NCBI GenBank assembly: GCA_946543095.1
Contig: CAMNLO010000016.1
Span: 1-12,626 of the forward strand
Direction of reading: 5' to 3'
DNA from: an uncultured bacterium
GTDB lineage: Bacteria; Bacillota; Clostridia; Lachnospirales; Lachnospiraceae
DNA length: 12,626 bases
Below, in pieces: positions 1 through 12,422 of the stretch. Positions within the stretch are counted from its first letter, which is position 1. Each line of letters opens with the position of its first letter. Both the position numbers and the translations under genes were made by a program. Under the pieces are notes generated by a model. The model saw only the letters and a list, made by a program, of their open reading frames with translations, was not told where the DNA came from and did no database searches.

Positions 1-54
<54 letters not shown>

Positions 55-332: not shown

Positions 333-1079
333 TCATCTGCTTCCCAGGGAATACTCCGTGCCGTACACCTCACCCGTCAGGGATACAGAGGCGATGCCCG
401 AAGCTTCCTCCTCAGAGATCTCACGGATCAGCACCAGCTCCTGCCCCGCCCCGGGGGAGAGAGGTCCCTGGAAATAAGCAAGGTCGTTTAAGAGCGCGGT
501 GGTGTTGGCCACCTTCGGAGCTTCCCCGTTGATCCCTATGCGGAACAGGGGTTTCAGGGAAAGGATATCCACAAAGACATCTCCTCCCGTTAAGTTCTCC
601 GTGTAAAAGCTTAGGACAAGAAGCTTGTGGCCGGGGTCCGCATCCATGGAAAAGCCGCCGCTCTCCCCGTAAGAATCCATCACATCATAGCCCATCCAGT
701 TGATGGAAACATCCGACAGGCCAAGCAGTTCGTCCACAGAGGACACCTCCGGCATGGAGGGTGCTTCCGGCGCGCCTCCCCCGCCGCTTTCAGAGCTCTC
801 GCCGCCTTCCTCTTCTGCCTGTGCTTCCTCCTCTTCCGCCCGCATCTTCGCCTTCATTTCCTCCACGGCGGCGTCCCGTTCTCTCTTCTTTGCCAGCTGT
901 TCCTCCGCATTGGTGACCAGCCGGAAATCCGTTCCCTTTCCGTGGCGCACGATCACGTCCACGGCGTATTCCGTGATAAGCTCCGTTTCCTCCTCCGTCA
1001 GATCGTAAAAGTATGCGCCGCAGGAGGAGAGCATAAGCGCCGATAATACAATGGCAATGATCCTGATGAATCCTTTCAT
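333..1079 (-). CDS. Lipoprotein with acidic linker, last gene of the signalling operon
   Basis: This is a 248-residue protein of unknown function. The N-terminus has a short basic start, a hydrophobic stretch and a lipobox LSSC, so Cys20 should be lipidated and the mature protein anchored on the outer face of the membrane. After a helical region (about 27-80) comes a low-complexity acidic and Gly/Ser-rich linker (about 81-112). A beta-rich C-terminal domain (about 113-245) has hydrophobic strands such as LLVLSFYTENL. It recalls extracellular DUF4352-like immunoglobulin-type lipoprotein domains, but I cannot prove that family. The start ATG overlaps the stop of the upstream sensor kinase (ATGA), so translation is probably coupled. 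A purine-rich AGGAAAGGAAA lies about 10 nt upstream. A role as ligand-binding partner or regulator of the kinase is inferred from the overlap alone. No terminator is visible after its stop. Confidence 0.85.
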   Translation of the reverse strand: MKGFIRIIAIVLSALMLSSCGAYFYDLTEEETELITEYAVDVIVRHGKGTDFRLVTNAEEQLAKKRERDAAVEEMKAKMRAEEEEAQAEEEGGESSESGGGGAPEAPSMPEVSSVDELLGLSDVSINWMGYDVMDSYGESGGFSMDADPGHKLLVLSFYTENLTGGDVFVDILSLKPLFRIGINGEAPKVANTTALLNDLAYFQGPLSPGAGQELVLIREISEEEASGIASVSLTGEVYGTEYSLGSR

Positions 1080-2410
1080 GAAAGCCCGGTTTCCTTTCCT
1101 ATAATAAAGAAGAACTCTACCCCGTTTTTCTTGTTTTCCACGCCATAGCTGCCCCCCATGCCGTCCAGGATGGCCTTGACGATGGAGAGGCCGATGCCGT
1201 TGCCGCCGTAGGCTCTGGTCCTGGCCTTGTCCGCTTTATAGAATTTCTCCCAAATATGGGGCAGGGCCTCCTCCGGGATGGGCTCCCCGGTGTTGAACAC
1301 GCTTACGACCGCCTGTTTTCCTTCACTCCTTAAGCCGATCCGGATCTTTCTCTCTCCAGAAAGGTGATGGAGGGCATTGGTGAAATAATTGGCAAACACC
1401 TGTCCCAGCTTGTCCGGATCCCCCAAGACCATGACCTCATCGTTTTCCGCTGTATCAAAAATGACCTCCGCCTGAGCCTCCCGGATCAGGACCTGCACGG
1501 AATTCAGGTAGTCCCGGATCAGGGCCGCCAGGTCAAAACGCTCCTCGTGATATTCCTCCCCCTGTTCCAGTTCGTTCAAGGTCAGAAGGCTTTTCACCAG
1601 CCAGTCCATTTTGGCGGCTTCATCCGCGATGATGCCCGCATACTCCCTGCACATTTCCTCATCTTCGCAGGCCCCGTCCGTTAGGCCTTCCGCGTAGCCC
1701 TGGATGATGGCAAGGGGAGTTTTCAGTTCATGGGAAGCGTTGGCAATGAATTCGTTGCGCATTTCGTCCAGCTTCTTCTGCCTGGCCAGATCCAGCTGCA
1801 GTGCCTCATTTTTGGCCTGCAGACTGATCAGGGTCTTTTCCAGAGGGCCTGACAGGATCCAGACCAGCAATCCGCCGGCGATCATGCCGAAGAGGCCGAT
1901 GTACAGCAGAAAACGGTTCGCCACAGCCGCGGATTCCCGCATGCTCTCAAGAGGAGACTGCATCAGGAAGGTCTCACCGCTTAACAGCGTGCCCCAGATC
2001 TCCATGTAGTCCGTCCCGGTGCGGCCATCCTTTGCGATCCACAGGGCATAGTGTTCGTTGCTTTCCAGTATATCTCTCTGCATGGGAGCCCCGGTGCTGC
2101 CTGCAAACAGGATGTCCAGGAGCCTGCGCTTTAAGCTCTCCTCCGAGCCGGAGAGACTGACTGTGGCAGAGGACGGATCCAGCACGATGATCCCCAGATC
2201 GTAACGGGCGGAGAGAAAGCTTAAGTCCACGGGAGCCCCGGAGGAAAAGCCCTGCTGCAGCAGCTCATAGGCCGCCACCAGGGATTTTTCCTTCTGTCCC
2301 CTGTAATACATCTCCAGAAACAGGTTATTGGCGATGCCGCAGAGAAGCAGGATGCAGGCCAGCAAAGCAATGTAGGACAAAGTCAGGTACAGCCTTAAGG
2401 AACGTTTCAA
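1076..2410 (-). CDS. Membrane sensor histidine kinase, VanS-like
   Basis: This 444-residue classical sensor kinase probably partners with the OmpR-type regulator four genes upstream. TM1 is about 8-30, an extracellular sensor region about 31-166, TM2 about 168-187, and a short coiled linker follows. The HisKA H-box SHELKTP has phospho-acceptor His227. The ATPase domain has an N-box with Asn341 and Asn345, a G1 box reading NTGEPIP (Asn373 where many kinases have Asp, common in VanS-like clostridial kinases), and a G2 box GGNGIGLSI at about 402-410. The start codon is TTG at 2410-2408. GGAGG lies 4 nt upstream (2419-2415), and the next Met would lose TM1, so the TTG is the likely start. It overlaps the stop of the preceding EAL gene, and the kinase stop overlaps the lipoprotein start. 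Autophosphorylation and phosphotransfer are family knowledge; the ligand is unknown. Confidence 0.93.
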   Translation of the reverse strand: MKRSLRLYLTLSYIALLACILLLCGIANNLFLEMYYRGQKEKSLVAAYELLQQGFSSGAPVDLSFLSARYDLGIIVLDPSSATVSLSGSEESLKRRLLDILFAGSTGAPMQRDILESNEHYALWIAKDGRTGTDYMEIWGTLLSGETFLMQSPLESMRESAAVANRFLLYIGLFGMIAGGLLVWILSGPLEKTLISLQAKNEALQLDLARQKKLDEMRNEFIANASHELKTPLAIIQGYAEGLTDGACEDEEMCREYAGIIADEAAKMDWLVKSLLTLNELEQGEEYHEERFDLAALIRDYLNSVQVLIREAQAEVIFDTAENDEVMVLGDPDKLGQVFANYFTNALHHLSGERKIRIGLRSEGKQAVVSVFNTGEPIPEEALPHIWEKFYKADKARTRAYGGNGIGLSIVKAILDGMGGSYGVENKKNGVEFFFIIGKETGLS

Positions 2411-4497
2411 GCTTCCTCCAGAAGATCGTGCACGATCTTTTCGATGGCTTCCTTTGTATAGGGCTTTGCGATAAAGCCGCTGGCCCCTAATGAGATCAGA
2501 CGGTTTTTCTCCTTGGGAGAGATCTGGGAGGTGATGAGCACCGGCAGATCCGCCAGATCCGAATTGGATTTCATGCGTTTTAACATCTCAAAGCCGTCCA
2601 TTCCGGGCATATTGATGTCCAGCATGACAATATCGCATTTGCCGCCGTTTAACAGATATTCCAGGCCGGAAATACCGTTGATGGCTTCCGTAATGGCAAA
2701 GCTTCCGCTGAAGATATCCCGGAGGATCGCCCGGTTCATGGCCAGGTCTTCCACGATGAGCATGGAGCGCTGCCCCTCGGAGGCATCCCGGACCAACAGG
2801 TCCTTCTGACGCTTCTTCTCCTCGATCTCCGTCATGACGCAGGTCCCCACCTTGTCCACCAGCTTGTTGAACTGGTCTATGGGAACCGGCGGCGAATAGT
2901 AAAAGCCCTGGACATAATGGCATTCCATGCGCTTTAAGGTGTTCAGCTCCTCCAGCCCCTCCACGCCTTCCGCGATGACGGAAAGATTCATCCATTTTGC
3001 CAGTCCGATGATGTATTCCAGGATCAGCCTCGCATTGGCATCCTGCTCCAGGGAACGGATGAAAAACCGGTCGATCTTTAAGATATCCAAAGACAGCTTT
3101 CCCAGCATGCTCAATGAGGAATAGCCGCTGCCGAAATCGTCCATTTCAATGATAAACCCGGATTTGCGCAGCACGTCCGTGACCTCTGCCAGCTTCGCCG
3201 GGCTGTCCACGTAGGCCGTCTCCGTGATCTCAAGATGCAGCAGCTCAGGAGCGATCCTGTGCTCCTCCACGATCTCCGGGATCACCTTCAGGATATCCAT
3301 GGAGTAGATGTCGCTTCTGGACACGTTCACGGACACCGGCACCACGGGCCTTCCGCTCTTCTTCCAGTCCGCGATCAGCTCTGCCGTCTTGTTCCAGACA
3401 TAGGTGTCCAGCTCGCTGACAAATCCGTTGCGCTCGAATAAGGGAATGAACTCTTCGGGGGAGATGATGCCCCGCTCCGGATGGACCCATCTCACAAGGC
3501 TCTCCGCCCCGATGATCTGTTCCCTGTCGATATCGAATTTCGGCTGCAGATAGATCTGGAACTGCTCCTCATTCAGAGCCTTGCGCATATTGTCGGTGAG
3601 ATGCTTCTCCCCCATCTTATGGGAATGGGTCTCCTCGCTGTAGAAGGCGTATTCCAGATTGAAATGATCCTTTGCCATGTTCACGGCGGAGTAGGCGCAT
3701 TCGCACATCTTTCCCACATCCTGGGCAGGATCCGTGATCTCATAGATGCCGAACTTGACCCGGATGTCCGTTTCCAGAGGATAGGAAGAGAGCACCCGCT
3801 CCGAAAACCGCACCAGCTTCGACTCATAGACCTTCTTTTTCATCAGGAAAATGAACCGGTCTGCATAGAGCCTGCAGCCCAGGACCAGATCCTTGCCGAA
3901 CTCCTTCCGCACCGCCTCCGCGATCCAGGACAGGAGCTGGTCCGCCTCCTTCGTTCCGTGCTGGACATTGATCAGGCTGAAATGGGAAACATCCATGGCC
4001 AGAAGGTCGTATTCCCCTTCTCCCGCCTTCAGGCGCTCCTCCACAAGCCGATAGAAAGGATTGCGTTTGAAGAGGCCTGTGAGATCATCATAGGACTCCT
4101 GCACGGGTCCCGGCATGGAAGCCTTCCGTTTTAAGAGATTGGCAAGCCGTAAACGGAACACATCCTTCCGGATCCCCTTGGCGGCGTAATCCATGGCTCC
4201 CAGCTTCAGCGCATTGGCTTCGAAAATGTCCTCCTTCTGGCCTGTGAGAACGAACACGGGCACGTCTGCGTGCTCCGGGCTCTTTGCCAGCTCGCTCAGG
4301 ACGTCAAAACCATCCATGCCGGGCATTACCAGATCCAGGATGATGGCACTGATATTCCCCCTTAAGTTCAGCTCCGATAAGGCGGCTTTTCCACCGGGAG
4401 CATCGATCAGGGTGTACTGCCCCTCCAGGGCTTCGTGAACCCAGCGTCTGTCCTGTTCTTCGTCATCCACAACCAATATGACCGGTTCTTTTTCCAT
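2407..4497 (-). CDS. Receiver - degenerate GGDEF - EAL - receiver protein, likely c-di-GMP phosphodiesterase
   Basis: A 696-residue cytoplasmic protein with four domains. Receiver 1 (about 5-125) has acidic pair Asp11/Asp12, phospho-acceptor Asp55, Thr85 and Lys108 (followed by Gly, not the usual Pro). The GGDEF domain (about 137-290) begins with DDLTGL, but its signature reads YADRF at 211-215, so it cannot be an ordinary diguanylate cyclase. The EAL domain (about 300-550) keeps the hallmarks: ESL with Glu332, Asn391, LEITET with Glu423, DDFGSG with Asp453/Asp454, Lys474, AEGVE with Glu510 and QGF with Gln530. It is therefore probably an active phosphodiesterase hydrolysing c-di-GMP to pGpG. 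Receiver 2 (about 578-693) has Glu583/Asp584, acceptor Asp627, Thr656 and Lys678-Pro. GAGGAG lies 7 nt before the ATG. The gene follows the hybrid kinase by 55 bp and overlaps the next kinase. Its receivers are the best candidates for the end of the relay. Confidence 0.94.
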   Translation of the reverse strand: MEKEPVILVVDDEEQDRRWVHEALEGQYTLIDAPGGKAALSELNLRGNISAIILDLVMPGMDGFDVLSELAKSPEHADVPVFVLTGQKEDIFEANALKLGAMDYAAKGIRKDVFRLRLANLLKRKASMPGPVQESYDDLTGLFKRNPFYRLVEERLKAGEGEYDLLAMDVSHFSLINVQHGTKEADQLLSWIAEAVRKEFGKDLVLGCRLYADRFIFLMKKKVYESKLVRFSERVLSSYPLETDIRVKFGIYEITDPAQDVGKMCECAYSAVNMAKDHFNLEYAFYSEETHSHKMGEKHLTDNMRKALNEEQFQIYLQPKFDIDREQIIGAESLVRWVHPERGIISPEEFIPLFERNGFVSELDTYVWNKTAELIADWKKSGRPVVPVSVNVSRSDIYSMDILKVIPEIVEEHRIAPELLHLEITETAYVDSPAKLAEVTDVLRKSGFIIEMDDFGSGYSSLSMLGKLSLDILKIDRFFIRSLEQDANARLILEYIIGLAKWMNLSVIAEGVEGLEELNTLKRMECHYVQGFYYSPPVPIDQFNKLVDKVGTCVMTEIEEKKRQKDLLVRDASEGQRSMLIVEDLAMNRAILRDIFSGSFAITEAINGISGLEYLLNGGKCDIVMLDINMPGMDGFEMLKRMKSNSDLADLPVLITSQISPKEKNRLISLGASGFIAKPYTKEAIEKIVHDLLEEA
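2415..2419 (-). promoter_or_regulatory. Ribosome binding site that fixes the TTG start of the sensor kinase
   Basis: GGAGG sits inside the last codons of the EAL-protein gene, 4 nt before a TTG whose last two bases are the first two of the upstream TGA stop. This arrangement suggests translational coupling and supports TTG as the kinase start. Confidence 0.7.
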
Positions 4498-4552
4498 AAA
4501 TACTCCTCATTTCTTAAACAGCTCCGGAAGCCTTTCCCCGATCCAGGGGCGC

Positions 4553-6889
4553 TCAGCCCGATATGGCCTTAAGCGGAGCCTTCAGCGCCTGATAATCCTT
4601 CAGAAAATCCCCATGGTGGGCGTTAATATATGCCATGTCCCCGTTTCTTCCCGCTTTTTCCAGCATCAGAGCCTTTTCTCCCAGCTCCATGGCGCCGATG
4701 GTCCTGGCGGAGCTTTTGAGCGAATGGACCAAAGTCGTGTATCCCTCCAGATCCGACTCCCGCAGCAGCCTTTCCAGCTCCTGTGTGTTTTCGTCAGCGG
4801 TATCCAGGAAGACCTTCAGGACCTGCCGGAAGATCTCCTCCCCCTGACAGTTTTCCAGGCCCGCCTCCACATTCACCCCGTAATCCTTTAAGGAAGCAAG
4901 ATCCGCCGCCTGCACCTCATGACGGTCTTCCTGCTGCTCCTCTTCCTCTGCCCAATCCATGATCTTTTCCTTCGGCAGATACTGCAGCAGCTGCTTTTCC
5001 AGTTCCTTCGTGTCGATGGGTTTTGCGAGATAATCCTCAAACCCGGCTTTCAGATATTGCTCCCTGGCCCCGGAGATCGCGTTGGCCGTAAGGCAGATCA
5101 CGGGGGTCTTGGCATTAATCCCCGTGGGATCGCTCTGCAATTCCTTCAGGGTCTCAATACCGTCCTTTTTCGGCATCATATGATCCAAAAAGATCATATC
5201 GTAGCGCTGCTTTGCTGCGAAGGCAAGCCCCTCGTCCCCGCTGCCCGCGGCGTCCACCCGGACCTTCGTGCGCTTGATGAGGCTCTTGAACACCTTCAGG
5301 TTCATGGTGTTGTCGTCCACCACCAGCACCCTCGCCTCCGGTGCCGTGAAGCGTCCGTGATCCTCTTTCCTGCGGCTGATATGCTCGCTGTAGGCATCCC
5401 TGTAATCCCCAAGAGGCTCCCAGCTCACCACCTTCTGCCGCAGGGCAAAGGAGAAGGTGGACCCTGCGCCGTAAATGCTGTCCACCTGAAGGGAGGCGCC
5501 CATGAGCTGCAGGAGGCTTCTGGTAATGCTCATGCCAAGGCCCGTTCCCTCTATGCTGCGGTTTCGCTTTTCATCGATCCGCTCAAATTCCACAAAGAGC
5601 TTCGGGATATCCTCCTTACGGATGCCGATGCCGGTGTCCCTGACGGAAACATTCAGGATGACCTGATCTTGCTCAGAGGGAAGCCTTTCGCTGCTGATGC
5701 TGAAGGTCACACTGCCCCGCTCCGTATACTTCACGGCGTTGGTCAGAATGTTCATGATGATCTGCTTGATGCGGACCTCGTCTCCATAGAGGCGGCCGGG
5801 CAGCAGGGGATCGAATTCCGGGATCAGCAGGAGTCCTTTTGCATCTGCCCTGGGATGGATCATGTTGACCAAAGAGTTGATAAACTCCGCCAGATCATAT
5901 TCCACGGGCAATATCTCGATCTTTCCGGCTTCGATCTTGGAAAAATCCAGAATGTCATTGATCAGGCCAAGGAGCGTCCCCCCGGCATCCCGGATGCTTT
6001 CGGAGTAGGAAAGGATCGCCTCGTTTTCCGCCTCCCTTAAGATCATCTCGTTCATCCCCAGCACCGCATTGATGGGGGTGCGGATCTCATGGGACATATT
6101 CGCCAGAAAGTCCGACTTGGAGCGGTTTGCGATATCCGCCGCCTGTTTGGCCTTGTCCAGATCCGAAAGGGTCTTCAAAAGATTCTGGTAGTCAGGGGTC
6201 TCCACTCCGATGTAAAAAATGTACAGCGCGATGACTGCCCCGAAATAATTAAACAGGATCCCGCTGCCGATCTGGAAGGTGTTGGTCAGCTCCAGCATGA
6301 CGCCGCCGATGGCCACGGAAAAGGCTGCCACTGCCGTGGACATGGCTCTGGCGCTCAGCTTCCTTCCCAGGATAATGAACAGCATGATGGTGTAGAACAG
6401 GTAATACAGCTCGTATACATAGCCCAGCATGACCCTGACCCACATGGGGACTGAGGTGATGATGTCTTCCCCCTGATTCCTGAGCAGCTGGAGTGTAAAG
6501 ACCAGAGTCGTAAAGACTACACTGGAAACAGCCAGGCCGGTGTTTATGGTGAGAAAAACATGCCTCAGGGGATACTCGTCAAAAAAGCCCTCCATGTAAA
6601 GCGACATGTAATAGGTCAGCAGGATATTCGCCTGAAAGACCAGCAGAAGCAGCAGAAGCTTGATCTCCGGCGCCACGGGAAACTGTCCTGAGTCCCGGAA
6701 AATATTGTCCAGTATGCTGATCAGATTCCCGAATACGATGGTGATGGTCAGGGTGCGGAACTGCAGGTTCTTATGCACCTGCCCCGTACCCAGGACGCGG
6801 ATCAGGATATAGAGCACTACACTGAATATAAATGCTGCAAGACTGAAGGAAATATGCAGCATGGTTTCCGTGCCGATCAGTTTAACCAA
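4553..6889 (-). CDS. Seven-helix hybrid histidine kinase with receiver and Hpt domains
   Basis: This 778-residue membrane kinase carries a full His-Asp-His relay cassette. About seven hydrophobic helices occupy residues 12-230 with only short loops, so sensing is probably within the membrane. A coiled linker (about 233-258) follows. HisKA has SHEIRTP with His267. The ATPase domain has N-box NILTN (Asn380, Asn384), G1 DTGIGI (Asp418) and G2 EGTGLGMSI (447-455). The receiver (about 519-638) has Asp525/Asp526, acceptor Asp569, Thr601 and Lys623. The C-terminal Hpt domain (about 665-772) has HSLKSSA with His722. There is no output domain, so phosphate must pass to another receiver; the adjacent EAL protein offers two. 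The proposed start is TTG (6889) with AAAGGA 5 nt away. An ATG at codon 10 (6862) just before the first helix is the alternative. The gene sits 35 bp after the OmpR-type regulator. Confidence 0.94.
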   Translation of the reverse strand: MVKLIGTETMLHISFSLAAFIFSVVLYILIRVLGTGQVHKNLQFRTLTITIVFGNLISILDNIFRDSGQFPVAPEIKLLLLLLVFQANILLTYYMSLYMEGFFDEYPLRHVFLTINTGLAVSSVVFTTLVFTLQLLRNQGEDIITSVPMWVRVMLGYVYELYYLFYTIMLFIILGRKLSARAMSTAVAAFSVAIGGVMLELTNTFQIGSGILFNYFGAVIALYIFYIGVETPDYQNLLKTLSDLDKAKQAADIANRSKSDFLANMSHEIRTPINAVLGMNEMILREAENEAILSYSESIRDAGGTLLGLINDILDFSKIEAGKIEILPVEYDLAEFINSLVNMIHPRADAKGLLLIPEFDPLLPGRLYGDEVRIKQIIMNILTNAVKYTERGSVTFSISSERLPSEQDQVILNVSVRDTGIGIRKEDIPKLFVEFERIDEKRNRSIEGTGLGMSITRSLLQLMGASLQVDSIYGAGSTFSFALRQKVVSWEPLGDYRDAYSEHISRRKEDHGRFTAPEARVLVVDDNTMNLKVFKSLIKRTKVRVDAAGSGDEGLAFAAKQRYDMIFLDHMMPKKDGIETLKELQSDPTGINAKTPVICLTANAISGAREQYLKAGFEDYLAKPIDTKELEKQLLQYLPKEKIMDWAEEEEQQEDRHEVQAADLASLKDYGVNVEAGLENCQGEEIFRQVLKVFLDTADENTQELERLLRESDLEGYTTLVHSLKSSARTIGAMELGEKALMLEKAGRNGDMAYINAHHGDFLKDYQALKAPLKAISG

Positions 6890-6894
6890 GGGTT

Positions 6895-6900
6895 TCCTTT
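6895..6900 (-). promoter_or_regulatory. Ribosome binding site supporting a TTG start of the hybrid kinase
   Basis: AAAGGA is 5 nt upstream of the TTG at 6889-6887 and lies in the 35-bp gap after the response regulator. The competing ATG at 6862-6860 has only a weak CGGAAA in front of it. Both starts leave the first transmembrane helix intact, so the choice does not affect the function call. Confidence 0.55.
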
Positions 6901-6924
6901 CAATTTACAAAATATGGGGAGGGC

Positions 6925-7605
6925 TCACTGTTTTTCCAGTTTGTACCCCAGGCCCCAGATGGTCCTGATGTGCTCGCCGGCGTCCCCCAGCTTGCTGCGA
7001 AGCTTTTTCACATGGGTGTCCACTGTGCGCTCATCTCCGAAATAATCATAATCCCAGACTGCCTGCAGGATCTTTTCCCTTGAGAGGGCGATGCCCGGAT
7101 GCTCCATAAAAAACCGCAGCAGTTCAAATTCCTTGAAGGAAAGCTCGATCCGCTCTCCCCCCACAGACACCTCTCTTGCCACAGGATCCAGAAGGATCTC
7201 CCCGAAGGAAAGCTTCTCTTCCTCCTGGGGCCTGCTGCGTCTTAAGATCGCATTGACCCTGGCCACCAGGACCCTGGGCCGGAAGGGCTTTTCCACATAT
7301 TCATCCGCCCCGGCGTCAAAGCCCGCCAGCTGATCCTGCTCGGAGGTCCTGGCAGTCAGAAGAATCACGGGCACAGCGGCGCGGTCCGCGCTGTCCCGGA
7401 TCTCCCGAAGCACCTGAAGCCCGTCCATTTTCGGCATCATCACATCCAGAATGAACAGCGAGATATCGGGAATCTCGTAAAAGGCGTTGATGGCCTCCTC
7501 TCCGTCTCCCGCCTCCAGCACCTCATAGCCTTCTTTTTTCAAAAAGTCGCGGACAAGTCTCCGGATCCTTTCCTCATCATCCGCCACAAGTATCTTTAAG
7601 CCCAT
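6925..7605 (-). CDS. OmpR/PhoB-family response regulator
   Basis: This 226-residue transcription factor has the usual two-domain length. The receiver (about 3-120) has Asp9/Asp10, phospho-acceptor Asp54 in LDVMMPKMDG, Thr84 and Lys106-Pro. The C-terminal winged helix (about 132-224) contains the strongly conserved FKEFELLRFF and RTVDTHVKKLRSKLG recognition segments and ends in the typical IRTIWGLGYKLE. Phosphorylation of Asp54 should favour dimerisation and binding to direct-repeat operators. The start ATG is one base after the stop of the upstream membrane-protein gene, with GGGG about 10 nt before it. The architecture pairs naturally with the VanS-like kinase at 1076-2410, but the two genes are separated by the hybrid kinase and the EAL gene. 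The operon promoter is an obvious first target for autoregulation; I see no clear direct-repeat operator there. Confidence 0.96.
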   Translation of the reverse strand: MGLKILVADDEERIRRLVRDFLKKEGYEVLEAGDGEEAINAFYEIPDISLFILDVMMPKMDGLQVLREIRDSADRAAVPVILLTARTSEQDQLAGFDAGADEYVEKPFRPRVLVARVNAILRRSRPQEEEKLSFGEILLDPVAREVSVGGERIELSFKEFELLRFFMEHPGIALSREKILQAVWDYDYFGDERTVDTHVKKLRSKLGDAGEHIRTIWGLGYKLEKQ

Positions 7606-7606
7606 T

Positions 7607-8152
7607 CTAACGGATCCCCAGCTCCTTCTCCGCCTTTTTGACTTCCTGCTCCCTCTGCGTCAGCTCCTCCTCCCAGGAGGCGTATTTGTTTACCAGTGCC
7701 TGCTCGTAGTTTAAGATATTGGGGTTTGGGGAGGACATGGTAAGATAAAACAGGATCCCCACCACTGCCAGAAGGATCAGGTTCAGGAGAACGGAGATCC
7801 TGTGGTTGTCAATGACGCGGTTTCTCTTCTCTTCCCTCCTGACCCGCTCCCTTGCGGTCTCGGTCCGTTCCCGGAACACCTCGGTAAAACGGACATAGAG
7901 CTGCACCGGGGGCACATCCTCCGCTCCGGAAGCCATCAGGGAGGCTCTCAGCCTGCTTAAAAACTGAAGCCCCGGAGGGGTACGGAAAATACGGTCTGCA
8001 AGAGCCTTGTCATAGATCCTCCGCACATTTTCCGTCTGGGAAAGATCGATGTGTGCGTCCAGATAGGCGGCCTGTTTTTCTTCCTTGGCAGCCTCGGCAG
8101 CATCTTCTTTGGAGGCATAGCAATAATGCCCGACGATCCGATCCTCTTCCAT
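7607..8152 (-). CDS. Single-pass membrane protein of unknown function
   Basis: This 181-residue protein belongs to no family I recognise. Residues 1-117 are charged and mostly helical, with an alanine- and acid-rich start and an Arg/Glu-rich stretch (about 94-112) just before the only transmembrane helix (about 119-139). The basic flank suggests N-terminus inside and C-terminus outside. The last 40 residues include a probable coiled coil (about 158-178, heptad-like Glu/Lys/Leu). The ATG lies six bases after the TAG of the zinc-ribbon/SH3 gene, and the only purine-rich site (GAGGAAG) is about 14 nt or more upstream. Expression therefore probably depends on translational coupling. It ends one base before the response-regulator start. 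Its fixed place between an SH3 envelope protein and a regulator suggests a signalling accessory or scaffold; this is inference. Confidence 0.85.
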   Translation of the reverse strand: MEEDRIVGHYCYASKEDAAEAAKEEKQAAYLDAHIDLSQTENVRRIYDKALADRIFRTPPGLQFLSRLRASLMASGAEDVPPVQLYVRFTEVFRERTETARERVRREEKRNRVIDNHRISVLLNLILLAVVGILFYLTMSSPNPNILNYEQALVNKYASWEEELTQREQEVKKAEKELGIR

Positions 8153-8158
8153 GACAGG

Positions 8159-9187
8159 CTAATTCACTTCCTCCACATAGTCCCGGTGCACATAGCCCTT
8201 CACATCGCCTCCGGCGTCAATATAGTACCACTCCCCCTGCTTCTTCAGATAGGGATACTCTTCGCCCTTTTTCGCCTTGCCGATGACCTGGGTCCCTGCC
8301 GTGGAGGCGCCGTCCCGGATATTCAGGCTGCCTGCGGTCACGCGGACCATGCCGCCCTCACCGGAGGCTTCTTCCTCCATGGAGCCGGCATCCCCGTCAG
8401 ACTCCTCCGTGTCTTCCTTCTTATCCTTCTTTTTTTCCTCTTTCTCTTCTTCCATCTCCTGCTTCGGCCCACTGCGGGGGATCAGCTCCTCGTTCCTGGC
8501 ATAGACGAAGAGCACTGCCGAAAGGACCACCAGGATCAGGATGCCTCCCGCGATAATGGCGATATTCAGCGCATTCTCCGTGGAATCCGGCTCCTGCTGA
8601 TAGGCGGCCCCGCTCTTTCTGCGCTGGGCATCTCTTCTCTGGGGCTCTCTTCTTTGCGCTCTGGCAGGCGCTGCCTGGGGCCTTGCGTTCTTCTGTCTTG
8701 CTCCCTGAGGCCTCTGCTCCTTCATCCTTGCGGGGATCCGGGGCTCCTCCTCATAGGCTTCCGACTCCTGTTCGTATAGCTCCTGCTCATAAGGATCCCG
8801 TTCATAAGGCTCCTGCCCGTAGGCCTCCTCTTCATAGGGGACTCCCGTGTCAAAAAGGGGCGCTCTTTTCTCCGGCTCTTTTCTTACGCTTTCCGGCTTC
8901 TTTTCATCATTTACGATCTCCCGCTGGGCCGCCGCGATGACGGCATCCGTCAGGGCGCCGATCTCCATTGTGCTCAATGCGTTGGGGTACGTCCCAGGCT
9001 GAGGGCTCTTGGGGGTCTCCCCCGGAACGGGGATCTCCGCGCCGCAGCGATGGCAGAATTTTTCCCCCTCTCTCAGCTTTTCCCCGCAGAAGGGACAGTT
9101 CTCGATCTTTACATCCACGAGCGTTCCGCAGTTGATACAGAACCGGTCCGTATCCAAAAGCTCCGCACCGCAATTCTTACACTTCAT
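8159..9187 (-). CDS. Zinc-ribbon / transmembrane / bacterial SH3 domain protein
   Basis: A 342-residue protein and first gene of the operon. Two zinc ribbons open the chain: Cys3-Cys6-Cys17-Cys20 and Cys31-Cys34-Cys45-Cys48. Then come a linker, a Tyr/Glu pentapeptide repeat (about 118-142), a Gln/Arg/Ala-rich basic segment (about 155-192), one transmembrane helix (about 206-230), an acidic/lysine-rich spacer (about 243-276) and a C-terminal SH3b domain (about 280-340, with SLNIRDGAS and GYVHRDYV motifs). The basic stretch before the helix indicates N-terminus inside and SH3 outside. Bacterial SH3 domains often bind cell-wall peptides, so this protein could link wall status to cytoplasmic partners held by the zinc ribbons. 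AAAGGA lies 9 nt upstream of the ATG, and a promoter is present at 9225-9253. The domain order is clear; the sensing role is inferred. Confidence 0.9.
   Translation of the reverse strand: MKCKNCGAELLDTDRFCINCGTLVDVKIENCPFCGEKLREGEKFCHRCGAEIPVPGETPKSPQPGTYPNALSTMEIGALTDAVIAAAQREIVNDEKKPESVRKEPEKRAPLFDTGVPYEEEAYGQEPYERDPYEQELYEQESEAYEEEPRIPARMKEQRPQGARQKNARPQAAPARAQRREPQRRDAQRRKSGAAYQQEPDSTENALNIAIIAGGILILVVLSAVLFVYARNEELIPRSGPKQEMEEEKEEKKKDKKEDTEESDGDAGSMEEEASGEGGMVRVTAGSLNIRDGASTAGTQVIGKAKKGEEYPYLKKQGEWYYIDAGGDVKGYVHRDYVEEVN
8763..8837 (-). repeat. Five imperfect 15-bp tandem repeats coding a Tyr/Glu pentapeptide repeat
   Basis: Five consecutive 15-bp units begin at 8763, 8778, 8793, 8808 and 8823, each a variant of GGCTCCTGTTCATAA on the plus strand. 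In frame they encode Y-x-x-(E/D)-x pentapeptides such as YGQEP, YERDP and YEQEL in the cytoplasmic linker of the zinc-ribbon/SH3 protein. The units are diverged, so they are old or selected at the protein level. The number of units may still vary between strains. Confidence 0.8.
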
Positions 9188-9202
9188 GTCCGATCATCCT
9201 TT

Positions 9203-9220
9203 AAAAGGGCATTCTTGCCC
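9203..9220 (-). terminator. Weak intrinsic terminator after the HAD gene, overlapping the next transcription start
   Basis: On the minus strand GGGCA and TGCCC (9220-9207) form a 5-bp hairpin with a 4-nt loop, followed by TTTT (9206-9203). It lies about 30 bp after the HAD stop codon. The short stem and short T-run make termination partial at best. The predicted start of transcription of the next operon (about 9218) falls inside the first arm, so transcripts from that promoter would not form the full hairpin. Confidence 0.45.
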
Positions 9221-9224
9221 GATT

Positions 9225-9253
9225 TTTACATAACTATCGTAATAATATCTCAA
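9225..9253 (-). promoter_or_regulatory. Promoter of the seven-gene signalling operon
   Basis: On the minus strand -35 TTGAGA (9253-9248, five of six consensus bases), a 17-bp AT-rich spacer and -10 TGTAAA (9230-9225, four of six). Transcription would start near 9218, giving a leader of about 30 nt before the zinc-ribbon/SH3 ATG at 9187. The -35 overlaps the stop codon of the HAD gene. There is no other gap of useful size before the hybrid kinase, so this is the best candidate for driving all seven genes. Confidence 0.6.
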
Positions 9254-9894
9254 TTATGACCGGATGTCCAGTCATAGGGATTCCGGATCTCTCCTGCATC
9301 CAGGAGCTCCGAAAGCCACTGAAGAAGTCCCTCTTCGTCCGTTACGAGGCAGGAATCCATCCCCAGAGACCGGGCAGCTTCCACATTTTCCGCCCTGTCA
9401 TCAAAGAAGATGGATTCCCTGCGGTCCAGATGATAGCGGTCAAACAGGATCCTGTAGATCTCCTTTTCCGGCTTCAGGCAATGGACCTGATAGCTGATGA
9501 CGGCTCCGTCCACATAAGGGAGCAGGCCCGTGGCCCAGATCTGCTTATAAAAGAAATTCTCGGAATAGTTGGAGAGCAGATAAACGGCAAAACCAGCGTC
9601 TTTCAGGTTTCTCACCATTTCCCAGACCCTGGGCCGTTCCACCACCATCAGCTCCGCATGGGTGAAGAAATGACGGAAGGCCTCGGCGTCCCCGGGATAG
9701 CGGCTGCACATGATCTCCATGACCTCCCGCTCCAGGATCCTGCCCCGGTCCATTTCATTCCAGAGGGGATCGTCAAAGCAAAGGCCTCCCACCCTGAGGG
9801 CATCCTCCTCGCTCAGCCCGAAATCCATGAACATATCCTTCCAGCGATAGCTCATGAGCACATTGCCGATATCCAGAACAAGATTTTTTTTCAT
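9250..9894 (-). CDS. HAD-superfamily hydrolase, YihX-like phosphatase
   Basis: This 214-residue cytoplasmic enzyme is of normal length for HAD subfamily IA. Motif I is LDIGNVL with nucleophile Asp8; the second Asp of the usual DxD is Gly, as in the YihX (glucose-1-phosphatase) group that reads DLGNV. A helical cap occupies about 15-95. Motif II is LLSNYS with Ser108, motif III is Lys141 in LKPEKEIY, and motif IV is FFDDRAENVEAA with Asp165/Asp166. The start is the ATG at 9894, because GGAGG lies 8 nt upstream and motif I normally begins a few residues from the N-terminus. A longer TTG frame from 9960 has no such support. The likely substrate is a small sugar or nucleotide phosphate, which cannot be read from the sequence. 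It follows the FliB-like gene by about 100 bp, with the small ORF between. Confidence 0.92.
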   Translation of the reverse strand: MKKNLVLDIGNVLMSYRWKDMFMDFGLSEEDALRVGGLCFDDPLWNEMDRGRILEREVMEIMCSRYPGDAEAFRHFFTHAELMVVERPRVWEMVRNLKDAGFAVYLLSNYSENFFYKQIWATGLLPYVDGAVISYQVHCLKPEKEIYRILFDRYHLDRRESIFFDDRAENVEAARSLGMDSCLVTDEEGLLQWLSELLDAGEIRNPYDWTSGHN

Positions 9895-9912
9895 TTCATC
9901 TTCCTCCAATTC

Positions 9913-9926
9913 CGAGGCAAACCTCG
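9913..9926 (-). other. Small hairpin just upstream of the HAD ribosome binding site
   Basis: CGAGG and CCTCG form a perfect 5-bp stem with a 4-nt loop, between the end of the small ORF (9929) and the GGAGG of the HAD gene (9907-9903). There is no T-run, so it is not a terminator. It could mark an RNA processing site or help couple the two reading frames. The neighbouring CGCGCTTCGCG adds a second short palindrome. Confidence 0.4.
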
Positions 9927-9928
9927 AA

Positions 9929-9985
9929 TCACGCGAAGCGCGATATGCTGCCGATGTCAAACGTGCGATTTATGTTTTCTTTCAA
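9929..9985 (-). CDS. Candidate 18-residue small ORF between the FliB-like and HAD genes
   Basis: GGAGG (9996-9992) comes immediately after the FliB-like stop codon and is followed 6 nt later by TTG (9985-9983). The frame then runs 18 codons, reading MKENINRTFDIGSISRFA, to a TGA at 9931-9929. The spacing is ideal and no other start lies near this GGAGG. I do not recognise the peptide. It has no hydrophobic helix and carries two or three basic residues. It may be a translated leader that couples FliB-like and HAD expression, a small protein, or part of a dispersed repeat that carries its own ribosome site. Being short, it could also be chance. Confidence 0.4.
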   Translation of the reverse strand: MKENINRTFDIGSISRFA

Positions 9986-9996
9986 ACGATACCTCC

Positions 9997-11094
9997 TCAG
10001 CCGTACCGGTCCATGATCCTCCGGAACAGCTCCTTTGCCACCTCATCATTGTGGTGGGCCCTGCGGGTGTAGGCGGCCAGGAGCTCGCACTGCCTGCTTA
10101 AGGGCAGCTCCCCCTCCGCATTGTATACCGTAAGATCCAGCATCAGGATCATATTCGCGTGGAGCACCGCCTGGATGATATGGGTAAAGAAGCTGTAGTC
10201 CTCATAGATGTCATAAAAGTCCAGCTGCAGAAAATAGCCGGCTATAACGGAGTATTTCCGGATCCTCCCGGGATCCTCCTCAAAATAGCGGCTGATCCAG
10301 CTGTCCAGAAGCTCCTGCCCTTTGATCTCCGTCAGGCGGTCAAAGACCCTGTAATAGCGCTTTAAGGGGCGATAGAGCTTCGGGGCAAGGATGCTTAGCC
10401 GTTCCTCAAACAAAGAGGTGGAATACAGCTCATTGAAAAGCATTATGGAAAAGGGAAACAAAGGAAACCTGTCTTCTTCGCAGAATGAAGCCTCCGGCAG
10501 CTTCTCTCCCCGGATACAGGCCTCCTGGGCTTTCTCAGCGTATTGCAGAAGACTGTTGAAGCTGTGGTTCAGGCCCCGGATCCCCGAATCCTCCCGAAGC
10601 AGCGAAAGCAGCCGGGGAAGCAGCTTTTCCAGAGAGGCAAGGAATTCCGGCTCCTCATTGTTTCCATAGCGCCTGCTTTCGATCTTCTCTTCGGAGTCCG
10701 TAAATCCAAGGGGGTCCTCTGCGGTCAAAAGAAGCCTGACGGCCTCCGGGCAGCCTGCATCCAGGGTCCTGACGGCAAAGCCTCCCAGATTGATGCACTG
10801 TCTGGGATACTCCCTGCAGACCCTGGGCATATACTTCTCCCCAAGCTTCCTCTGGAGGCCGCAGAGGGCCTCCCTGTCCTGAAAAGGACATTTCCCCAGG
10901 CTCAGCCGAAAGCTCTTCAGCTTCCCTCCCCGGATACGGGAACGGATGAGAAAGCCCTTCAGGCCCTTCATGTTGTGATAGGTCTCACAGATCTCATCGT
11001 CCAGAGGGATCCCCCAGCCAAAGCAGCAGGTTACGGGACATTCCCCCTGAATGCAGTGGAAATCGTGATACCAGGATACGGTCTTTACGATCAT
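9997..11094 (-). CDS. FliB-family cysteine-rich protein (flagellin lysine-N-methylase-like)
   Basis: This 365-residue protein has the family's cysteine pattern: Cys14-x4-Cys19-x3-Cys23-Cys24 followed by FGWGIPLDDE, then Cys69-PF, Cys78, Cys93-REYPR-Cys100 and Cys115. In Salmonella, FliB methylates surface lysines of flagellin, and the enzyme is reported to need a 4Fe-4S cluster and S-adenosylmethionine. The cysteines here fit a metal cluster. The C-terminal half is helical with no further motif I can name. The ATG at 11094 is preferred because it places the first cysteine at the usual distance. A longer TTG frame (11133) would start inside the terminator hairpin. No Shine-Dalgarno sequence is visible before the ATG. 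No flagellin or flagellar gene is in the window, so the substrate may be another protein. Confidence 0.85.
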   Translation of the reverse strand: MIVKTVSWYHDFHCIQGECPVTCCFGWGIPLDDEICETYHNMKGLKGFLIRSRIRGGKLKSFRLSLGKCPFQDREALCGLQRKLGEKYMPRVCREYPRQCINLGGFAVRTLDAGCPEAVRLLLTAEDPLGFTDSEEKIESRRYGNNEEPEFLASLEKLLPRLLSLLREDSGIRGLNHSFNSLLQYAEKAQEACIRGEKLPEASFCEEDRFPLFPFSIMLFNELYSTSLFEERLSILAPKLYRPLKRYYRVFDRLTEIKGQELLDSWISRYFEEDPGRIRKYSVIAGYFLQLDFYDIYEDYSFFTHIIQAVLHANMILMLDLTVYNAEGELPLSRQCELLAAYTRRAHHNDEVAKELFRRIMDRYG

Positions 11095-11100
11095 TCGGCG

Positions 11101-11106
11101 TTTATA
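11101..11106 (-). promoter_or_regulatory. Possible -10 hexamer placing transcription start at the FliB-like ATG
   Basis: TATAAA on the minus strand lies exactly six bases before the ATG at 11094. If used, transcription would start at or within a base or two of the ATG and give a leaderless mRNA, which fits the missing ribosome site. No -35 hexamer is present at 16-18 bp and there is no TGn extension, so support is weak. Confidence 0.25.
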
Positions 11107-11145
11107 ACGAAAGAGGCGCCCGCCGCTTTCCAACGGCGAGCGCCT
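11107..11145 (-). terminator. Strong terminator after the EAL/HDOD gene
   Basis: The minus strand forms a 12-bp stem, AGGCGCTCGCCG (11145-11134) with CGGCGGGCGCCT (11125-11114), with one T-G wobble and an 8-nt loop. It is followed by CTTTCGTT. The hairpin starts 22 nt after the EAL/HDOD stop codon. The tail is a modest T-run, but the stem is very stable, so it probably ends most transcripts of that gene and isolates it from the FliB-like gene. Confidence 0.78.
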
Positions 11146-11167: not shown

Positions 11168-12388
11168 TTATTTGAACAGATCCCTGTACCACTGCAGGGA
11201 CTTCACGTAGGCGTCGTACACATCATCCATTTCGATGTTTAAGAGCACCATCTGGCGGGAAACCTCCTGCCAGGAAGCATCCTCATATTCCAGAATGAAT
11301 TCATACACCGGCGCCAGATTTCCCTTGCCGGAAATCAGCGCGTCGCTGATCATTTTAGAGACCTTCACCAACTCCAGGGCTTCCGCCATGGGCTTATCCA
11401 GAATGATATCCAGAACGGAGAACAGGCCCATTAAGAACAGCTCGGAGGAAAGGCCCGCCATCTGGAAGCAGGGGGCCAGATTCTCCGCAAACTTCGCCCG
11501 CAACAGGGAAAGACGGGTGATCTCGCTGGGTCTGTCGGCGCAGAGCTCTTTTGTGACGGCGGTGTTGATCCATCTCTTTAATTCCCGCTGCCCCAGCATT
11601 GCCGCTGCGTGGCGCACGGAGGAGATCCCGGAGTTTACGGTCATCCTGTTTACCATTTCCAGAAGGGAGATGACCAGGGCCGTATCCCTTCCGATGATGT
11701 CCGCCGCCTTGTCCAGGTCGAAATCCGGGTCGTTTACGATATTCAGCAGCTCGATGTAATTTACCTTTAAGGGGGCCACTTCCTTCGCCCCGTTATGCAC
11801 CGGCAGGCGGAAGAATTCGCCTTCGTAGAGGTCATAGCCGCCGTGCTCGCAAAGGGTATCGTAGTCTTCCTGGGAATCCACGTTCACAGCCACCAGCTTG
11901 ATGTTCGGATACACATTGCTGAAATAGATCCTGGCTTTGCTGATATCGATCTTCTTGTGGTTCAGCAGGATGTAATCCATCAGCAGCAGGATCTCGCGGT
12001 ACTGCTCAAACTGAGGGACCGTGAGCTTGCGGATCGCCAGCTTGAAGCCTTCTCCCTTCAGCTCCTTTAGGCGGTTAACATAATTTGTTTCCGGCGTCAC
12101 CGTCTGGTCGATCATCAAAACCACCTTGTCATGAGGGGCCTCGCACTCAGAGGCGATATCGCTGAAAATGGAGATATTATTAACCTCTACAAACACATCC
12201 CTGTCACCCACCAGGGTTTCCATCCCCATGCTCTCGATGATATCGAGACCGATGACCGTGGCGGCGCCGTCCAGGCTGCCGGCTCCGAGGAAGCTGGGAC
12301 GCAGCAGGAAGTTTTGTGTCTGGGCGAAAATCGAGTATCCTCCTACTCCCATTGATGAATCAAACAAAGGGATCAGGGTTGCAAGCAT
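11168..12388 (-). CDS. EAL/HDOD signalling protein with a catalytically dead EAL domain
   Basis: This 406-residue cytoplasmic protein follows the YuxH-type architecture. An EAL-like domain (about 1-190) precedes an HDOD domain (about 200-400). The HDOD part contains the typical IVNDPDFDLDKAADIIGRD and SSVRHAAAMLGQRELKRW segments. In the EAL part the ExL signature is replaced (GGYSIFAQ where family members read YElLyR) and the DDF metal site reads AIRK, so it should not hydrolyse c-di-GMP. It may act as a ligand-binding or protein-interaction module. The ATG at 12388 is chosen because AAGGAG lies 6 nt upstream (12400-12395). A TTG frame beginning at 12421 lies in the leader. The gene is monocistronic by signals: its own promoter (12436-12463) and the terminator at 11107-11145. 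Confidence 0.92.
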   Translation of the reverse strand: MLATLIPLFDSSMGVGGYSIFAQTQNFLLRPSFLGAGSLDGAATVIGLDIIESMGMETLVGDRDVFVEVNNISIFSDIASECEAPHDKVVLMIDQTVTPETNYVNRLKELKGEGFKLAIRKLTVPQFEQYREILLLMDYILLNHKKIDISKARIYFSNVYPNIKLVAVNVDSQEDYDTLCEHGGYDLYEGEFFRLPVHNGAKEVAPLKVNYIELLNIVNDPDFDLDKAADIIGRDTALVISLLEMVNRMTVNSGISSVRHAAAMLGQRELKRWINTAVTKELCADRPSEITRLSLLRAKFAENLAPCFQMAGLSSELFLMGLFSVLDIILDKPMAEALELVKVSKMISDALISGKGNLAPVYEFILEYEDASWQEVSRQMVLLNIEMDDVYDAYVKSLQWYRDLFK

Positions 12389-12422
12389 ACGATGCTCCTT
12401 TCCGATGAAAACATCAAACAAG

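Follow-up and report, generated by a model that had tools for sequence, protein, structure and literature searches.

A conserved response regulator-histidine kinase pair separated by a hybrid kinase and a predicted c-di-GMP phosphodiesterase on a Lachnospiraceae contig

Described systems and the locus under study

For two Myxococcus species, five changes in the gene organization of two-component systems (TCSs) have been described, two of which proceeded via gain or loss of intervening genes (PMC4603909), while TCS genes lying within 200 bp of each other have elsewhere been taken as partners (PMC3018481). Sensor kinases that lack a HAMP domain are likewise on record, i.e., AgrC, BvgS, DesK, DctB and the nitrate sensors of Bacteroidetes (PMC8199190). 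The components of the case presented here, i.e., intervening TCS genes, HAMP-less kinases and rules for pairing, are already known. The case concerns the 12,626-base contig CAMNLO010000016.1 (C16), analyzed in its entirety and referred to as the window, from an uncultured member of the Lachnospiraceae (assembly 68% complete, 370 contigs). As had been predicted, its minus strand carries a response regulator (RR; 6925..7605) of OmpR/PhoB type (Pfam Response_reg and Trans_reg_C) and a sensor histidine kinase (HK; 1076..2410) of 444 aa (Pfam HisKA and HATPase_c, with two hydrophobic helices judged by eye), between which the list of open reading frames (ORFs) and Pfam place two further genes. These encode a membrane hybrid kinase with HisKA, HATPase, receiver (REC) and Hpt domains in a single chain (HHK; 4553..6889), and a REC-GGDEF-EAL-REC protein (RGER; 2407..4497), for which Pfam returns GGDEF and EAL together with Response_reg in two stretches.

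The locus resembles those of myxobacteria in holding intervening genes, yet it differs in that one junction appears to have been opened repeatedly within one family, with gaps of up to ~29 kb and with order and strand retained (compare PMC4603909). Similarly, no HAMP domain intervenes between the transmembrane helix and the dimerization and histidine phosphotransfer (DHp) helix of the window HK, as in the kinases of PMC8199190, where absence of HAMP within a kinase family has precedent, whereas the HAMP-less kinases found here are rare exceptions within one ortholog set, all three residing in split loci. The 200-bp rule (PMC3018481) would not count RR and HK of the window as neighbours, although orthology makes them one pair. 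Both belong to fold families common to the PhoB/PhoR, VanR/VanS and WalR/WalK types, though without reaching the curated cut-offs for these. EAL, GGDEF and REC, the last counted irrespective of copy number, occur together in all but one (P0070) of the best 120 matches listed among Lachnospirales proteins, as they do in RGER, which differs in lying inside an RR-HK pair and in its degenerate GGDEF domain. In the literature searched, most subscription journals being outside its scope, no title or abstract dealt with this locus, with repeated opening of one junction or with coincidence of HAMP loss and splitting.

The reading that we favour, with a probability of roughly 0.7, is that a conserved RR-HK pair was split by insertion of HHK and RGER, that the HK would still control a re-tuned RR, and that HHK would signal to RGER in a phosphorelay of their own for c-di-GMP breakdown, transcribed together with the pair.

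Conservation and repeated opening of the RR-HK junction

The distribution of the pair was surveyed in one genome per genus, with 37 in-family representatives (of 61 genomes) and two further sets of 80, i.e., 197 in total. At the survey thresholds, RR orthologs were present in 35/37, 76/80 and 73/80 of these sets (184 genera) and HK orthologs in 34/37, 76/80 and 72/80 (182 genera). Both genes reside on the same contig in 172 genera and on different contigs in nine, while three genera returned the RR only and one the HK only; in two of the RR-only genera, G077 and G203, a weaker HK match adjoins the RR. In every one of the 172 same-contig genera the RR comes first and the HK second on one strand. 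The gap between them, estimated from match coordinates, is below 400 nt in 150 of the 172 genera and at least 1 kb in 17, the window included. The original prediction, that such genes normally lie side by side and are separated here, and its proposed comparison with related loci are thereby upheld: a version without the two middle genes exists and is the rule. In 22 genera the gap reaches 400 nt or more, though not always through an insert: of the five smallest such gaps, two reflect long kinases (G154 and G092) and the other three (G013, G105 and G110) contained no ORF of at least 150 aa, nor did the 1.8-kb gap of G131.

The surroundings of the pair are conserved as well. A relative of TM181 (7607..8152; 181 aa, one hydrophobic helix), which precedes the RR in the window, occurs in 61 of the 66 RR-holding loci of the named-collection set (80 loci), and a relative of the putative lipoprotein that follows the HK (333..1079) in 71 of the 80. 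The window retains the conserved order and strand but not the adjacency of RR and HK, which lie 4.5 kb apart. The RR shares 56-67% identity with in-family orthologs among the matches listed and has the layout of the OmpR/PhoB structural family (REC plus Trans_reg_C). Distances among RRs correlate with those among HKs (r 0.68, Mantel p 0.001, n=151), as shared descent would also produce. RR and HK are orthologs of one conserved pair. Its functional class is less specific than the predicted 'VanS-like' label: the VanS model of NCBIfam does match the HK, but so do the PhoR, WalK and PnpS models, none of them above its curated cut-off (best PnpS, 196.6 against 400 needed), and the PhoB, VanR and OmpR equivalogs likewise stay below theirs for the RR (best PhoB, 224 against 296.2 needed).

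Genes found in the gaps form many clusters, and the cargo differs between split loci. By Pfam it includes an RND efflux pump, a glycosyltransferase, an HD_5 (HD-GYP type) protein, a methyl-accepting chemotaxis protein, a TIR protein and a hybrid kinase, as well as a phosphotransferase system, GH43, an M20 peptidase, GGDEF with a binding protein, PfkB with MatE, tRNA synthetases, UvrD, a branched-chain amino acid transporter, an RND pump with hybrid kinase, SUF and ECF genes, an ABC sugar locus with GGDEF and, in the ~29 kb gap of G103, ABC exporters with a beta-galactosidase. On contigs lacking the HK, the RR of G065 is followed by a hybrid kinase with a GGDEF gene next to it, and that of G181 by an HD_5 protein. 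Further hybrid kinases lie inside the RR-HK gap in G084 and L117. Among ORFs of 100 aa or longer in the gaps, 85/99 are oriented like RR and HK, no more than in the flanks (816/958). Signalling genes are not clearly enriched, with 7/71 gap families against 34/554 flank families (p 0.21); adding the genes after the RR on contigs without HK (8/50) gives 15/121 (p 0.031), and omission of the second half of a broken RGER gene in G061 and of a kinase-like frame in G203 gives 13/119 (p 0.074). There is thus a weak hint at most of signalling enrichment, which does not make the signalling nature of the window insert a general rule.

Several individual loci are recorded here in their own right. Pfam identifies an RND efflux pump (HlyD and AcrB type) between the RR and HK of L077 and L230; the same cargo is assigned to L078, L080, L097, L106, L109 and L112 from their clustering with L077, and to L072, L079, L083 and L096 solely from gene size. 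In G203 (L258 2434-8736), the HK-like match falls within one 2100-aa open frame directly after the RR, and in G106 (L242 10025-10696) a lipoprotein relative (25%) follows the RR, the HK being on a different contig. In G065 the lipoprotein is followed by a CheV-like gene of CheW-receiver layout and then by an EAL gene (L241 8991-11924; Pfam), and receiver matches after the lipoprotein also occur in L252, L254, L256 and others, where mostly the receiver match alone was seen.

HAMP loss and rapid change in the separated pair

The window HK yielded no Pfam HAMP match even at E 0.1, and HAMP is likewise absent from the HKs of G073 and G214, while all seven other kinases tested possess it. In a set of 158 sequences (G030 unreadable), the linker from N165 to H227 measures 63 residues in the window and 59 and 61 in G073 and G214, compared to 108-129 in 154 of the 155 others. 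Alignments place the missing stretch between I185 and L186 (1853..1858, minus strand), where relatives hold ~45 extra residues, and HAMP-bearing kinases among the matches listed are mostly 486-513 aa long. HAMP state could be read directly in 151 of the 172 same-contig genera: the three HAMP-less HKs all fall among the 17 genera with gaps of at least 1 kb and none among the 134 with smaller gaps (Fisher p 0.0012; 0.0027 at the 400-nt threshold; 0.011 without the window, from which the search had started).

The edges of the deletion differ among the window, G073 and G214. In an HK tree that includes P0122 and P0124 and uses a mixture model, three HAMP changes are needed, and the sister of G073 (97/85) is G034, whose HK carries HAMP and lies next to its RR; the TypA tree also joins G034 and G073 (100/99). 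A tree computed without P0122, P0124 and the mixture model had united the three HAMP-less kinases (94/97), which we read as long-branch attraction because they separate once these are included. HAMP was therefore probably lost three times, as judged from these phylogenies. The HAMP-less kinase of the window lineage looks maintained, since P0122, P0123 (443 aa) and P0124 (partial), which lack HAMP at the same boundary, retain the H-box and, as far as their sequences extend, the ATP-site motifs.

RR and HK of the window are, furthermore, unusually divergent, while TypA and the flanking genes are not. When 27 in-family genera are ordered by mean path length, the window comes first for the RR (1.22, median 0.71) and second for the catalytic part of the HK (2.04, median 1.25), compared to tenth for TypA (0.46, median 0.44), 11/19 for TM181 and 11/17 for the lipoprotein. 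Its end-branch ranks are 1 (RR), 1 (HK), 10 (TypA), 15 (TM181) and 8 (lipoprotein). These root-free measures replaced depth ranks from a rough rooting, the TM181 and lipoprotein trees having no outgroup. Within larger sets, only one of 152 in-family RRs has a longer end branch than the window, and none of 157 HKs does. The stem joining the window HK with P0122 and P0124 measures 0.95 and the tips 0.43-0.52, near the median tip of 0.48, a pattern suggestive of a burst of change followed by ordinary constraint. The loss of HAMP and the fast change of both genes suggest that the old pair was probably re-tuned.

Whether the two proteins still recognize each other was judged from their docking core, read from EnvZ positions T250, L254 and A255, which we take to be specificity-determining. 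The equivalent window HK residues, A234, G238 and Y239, are common to 95, 96 and 96 of 96 others, those of HHK being N, G and M. On the RR side, R15, L17, D20, F21 and L22 of alpha-1 are shared with 96/96 others and V18 with 93/96; I14 and R16 depart from 94/96, and the unusual changes lie mostly outside alpha-1 (e.g., M82L, E92Q, S109R and N169H). The catalytic motifs of the HK are intact. Retention of this core favours the view that HK and RR would remain partners.

A link between splitting and HAMP loss may exist. The broader proposal, that splitting frees kinase architecture, with HAMP lost three times and only in split lineages, and with a burst in RR and HK and capture of a c-di-GMP phosphorelay in the window lineage, i.e., that splitting opens the way to circuit rewiring, is a tentative one that we consider rather less likely than its contrary.

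The inserted genes and their interpretation

The EAL motifs of RGER (E, N, E, DD, K, E, Q), residues which we take to be catalytic, are present and align with those of the solved proteins 5m3c and 4rnh, while its GGDEF signature reads YADRF, compared to GGDEF in solved relatives. RGER is therefore likely a phosphodiesterase without cyclase activity, so that the c-di-GMP breakdown foreseen in the original prediction is borne out as far as protein anatomy goes. HHK has the layout of a hybrid phosphorelay kinase, and the BarA, TorS and ArcB models of NCBIfam match it below their cut-offs. A shared mRNA had also been anticipated, and here too it is anatomy that agrees. The junctions are as tight as claimed, with gaps of 1 nt (TM181/RR), 35 nt (RR/HHK) and 55 nt (HHK/RGER), followed by two 4-nt overlaps: TTGA (2407..2410), joining the RGER stop to the TTG start of the HK, with GGAGG just 5' of this start within RGER, and ATGA, joining the HK stop to the lipoprotein ATG. 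A terminator scan found no terminator-like site on the minus strand in the gaps from TM181 through the lipoprotein.

Homologs of RGER were sought in 298 other genera, scoring at most three candidates per genome. The best match among those listed is from G061 (53%, full length); it is the sole listed match above 50%, being followed by a second G061 copy (44%) and then by 40%. In G061 the RGER ortholog directly follows the RR without HHK, and HAD, a 787-aa gene, zinc-ribbon and TM181 precede the RR. Its contig (G061:C51, L218) holds two RGER-type genes, 8911-10980 and 271-2349, with one in-frame TAA in each match, and the copy after the RR is interrupted, leaving two ORFs (419 and 257 aa); the HK, with HAMP, lies on a different contig before a 16S gene. 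Closer RGER homologs among the matches listed are P0001 (92%), P0002 (78%) and P0003 (71%, partial). For HHK, the best full-length survey match is from G103 (61%), on another contig than its RR, and P0242 (83%) is among the matches listed in the large protein set. P0242 and P0001 carry the same longest-contig figure (14,671), for which reason these homologs probably sit together, and HHK and RGER probably travel together.

Since adjacency of RR and HK is the rule, HHK and RGER are most likely an insertion and not ancestral members, the direction of change being judged from comparative data. An ancestral unit of TM181, RR, HK and lipoprotein, here before an rRNA operon, would have been opened between RR and HK by an Hpt-bearing hybrid kinase and a REC-GGDEF-EAL-REC phosphodiesterase. 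This may have occurred stepwise, with RGER first, as RGER without HHK follows the RR in G061. In the same lineage the HK would have lost HAMP, and HK and RR would have changed fast. The HK most likely still controls the RR, whereas phosphate from HHK would travel through the REC and Hpt of this kinase to one or both REC domains of RGER, thereby setting c-di-GMP breakdown, the whole gene set presumably being carried on one mRNA.

The alternative that survives best, albeit an improbable one, is a rewired circuit, in which HHK drives the RR via its Hpt domain, the HAMP-less HK having turned into a phosphatase or a constitutive kinase, or having taken the RGER receivers as partners. The absent HAMP domain and the fast divergence of HK and RR, not shared by TypA and the flanks, would fit this alternative, as would the hybrid kinases after the RR in G065 and in the gaps of G084 and L117, but the unchanged HK-RR docking core, the intact HK motifs and the probable joint travel of HHK and RGER argue against it. 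Far less probable is a five-gene operon in which HHK and RGER were original and lost from most lineages. RGER follows the RR in G061 too, and the junctions are tight and the composition ordinary; however, a comparison of 52 gap proteins with the window HHK and RGER at E 1e-3 returned no match, the hybrid kinases of G065, G084 and L117 (50, 27-29 and 30%) resemble HHK only in kinase, receiver and (G084) Hpt-side parts, and other split loci hold mostly unrelated genes, the gap being short in most genera. The RGER/HK overlap had been thought to favour a long-kept operon, an argument that falls away because short overlaps are also seen at uninterrupted RR/HK junctions and no mapped locus besides the window holds orthologs of both HHK and RGER. 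That RR and HK are chance neighbours, or the contig an assembly chimera, is very improbable despite the incomplete and fragmented assembly, given that both halves are syntenic with the family-wide locus, that the RR-RGER order recurs in G061, that RGER and HK meet in a stop/start overlap of intact frames and that P0242 and P0001 share their longest-contig figure.

Several points count against the favoured insertion reading. One other RR branch exceeds that of the window in the larger sets, where strong divergence is also seen in lineages whose genes are adjacent, and splitting in general showed no link with fast change of RR (p 0.46) or HK (p 0.13). The association of HAMP absence with splitting is not significant in a set of 94 same-locus pairs plus the window (p 0.083); as this set over-samples split loci, the one-per-genus survey is preferred for the test. 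A single HAMP-less clade is not rejected by the approximately unbiased (AU) test (p 0.153). The HHK-RGER partnership is argued from adjacency and the one matching figure of 14,671, and no HK with that figure was found among the matches listed. In base composition and codon usage the insert matches its neighbours and therefore gives no sign of recent foreign origin. Finally, the hybrid kinases that follow the RR elsewhere and the unclear signalling enrichment lower confidence in this reading slightly.

The complete minus-strand order is HDOD, FliB-like, HAD hydrolase, zinc-ribbon/SH3, TM181, RR, HHK, RGER, HK, lipoprotein and the 5' end of a 16S rRNA gene (1..47, by its start motif), so that the locus precedes an rRNA operon. 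A scan of 117 other HK loci recovered this motif downstream of the HK in seven; a further 32 of them end within 1.5 kb. The zinc-ribbon/SH3 gene (8159..9187; Pfam), which also precedes TM181 in G061, is possibly the first of the transcript; a promoter-like TGGACA-17-TATTAT (9242..9270), a consensus match, lies 5' of it, the scan having found 11 such sites in the window against 6.7 expected. Pfam and NCBIfam scans returned no match for TM181 or for the lipoprotein, the latter having no solved relative with E below 0.028, and an Rfam scan of the window was without a match. The N-terminal part of the HDOD protein (11168-12421) resembles a degenerate EAL domain, Pfam finding HDOD alone, a layout which we assume to be of YuxH type. 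The gene at 9997-11133 encodes a FliB-type flagellin lysine methylase (NCBIfam 141.8 bits, cut-off 85); no flagellin was found among ten window genes scanned.

Adjacent RR and HK genes are a main guide to partners in two-component biology, and the present locus is a practical case where a distance rule would mis-call them. One orthologous pair that can be traced across more than 150 genera, with natural splits and unrelated inserts, constitutes a replicated system for the role of adjacency. Should HAMP loss prove to coincide with splitting in more genomes as well, operon structure would be tied to kinase architecture, and the window offers a case in which the possible rebuilding of bacterial signalling circuits can be put to the test.

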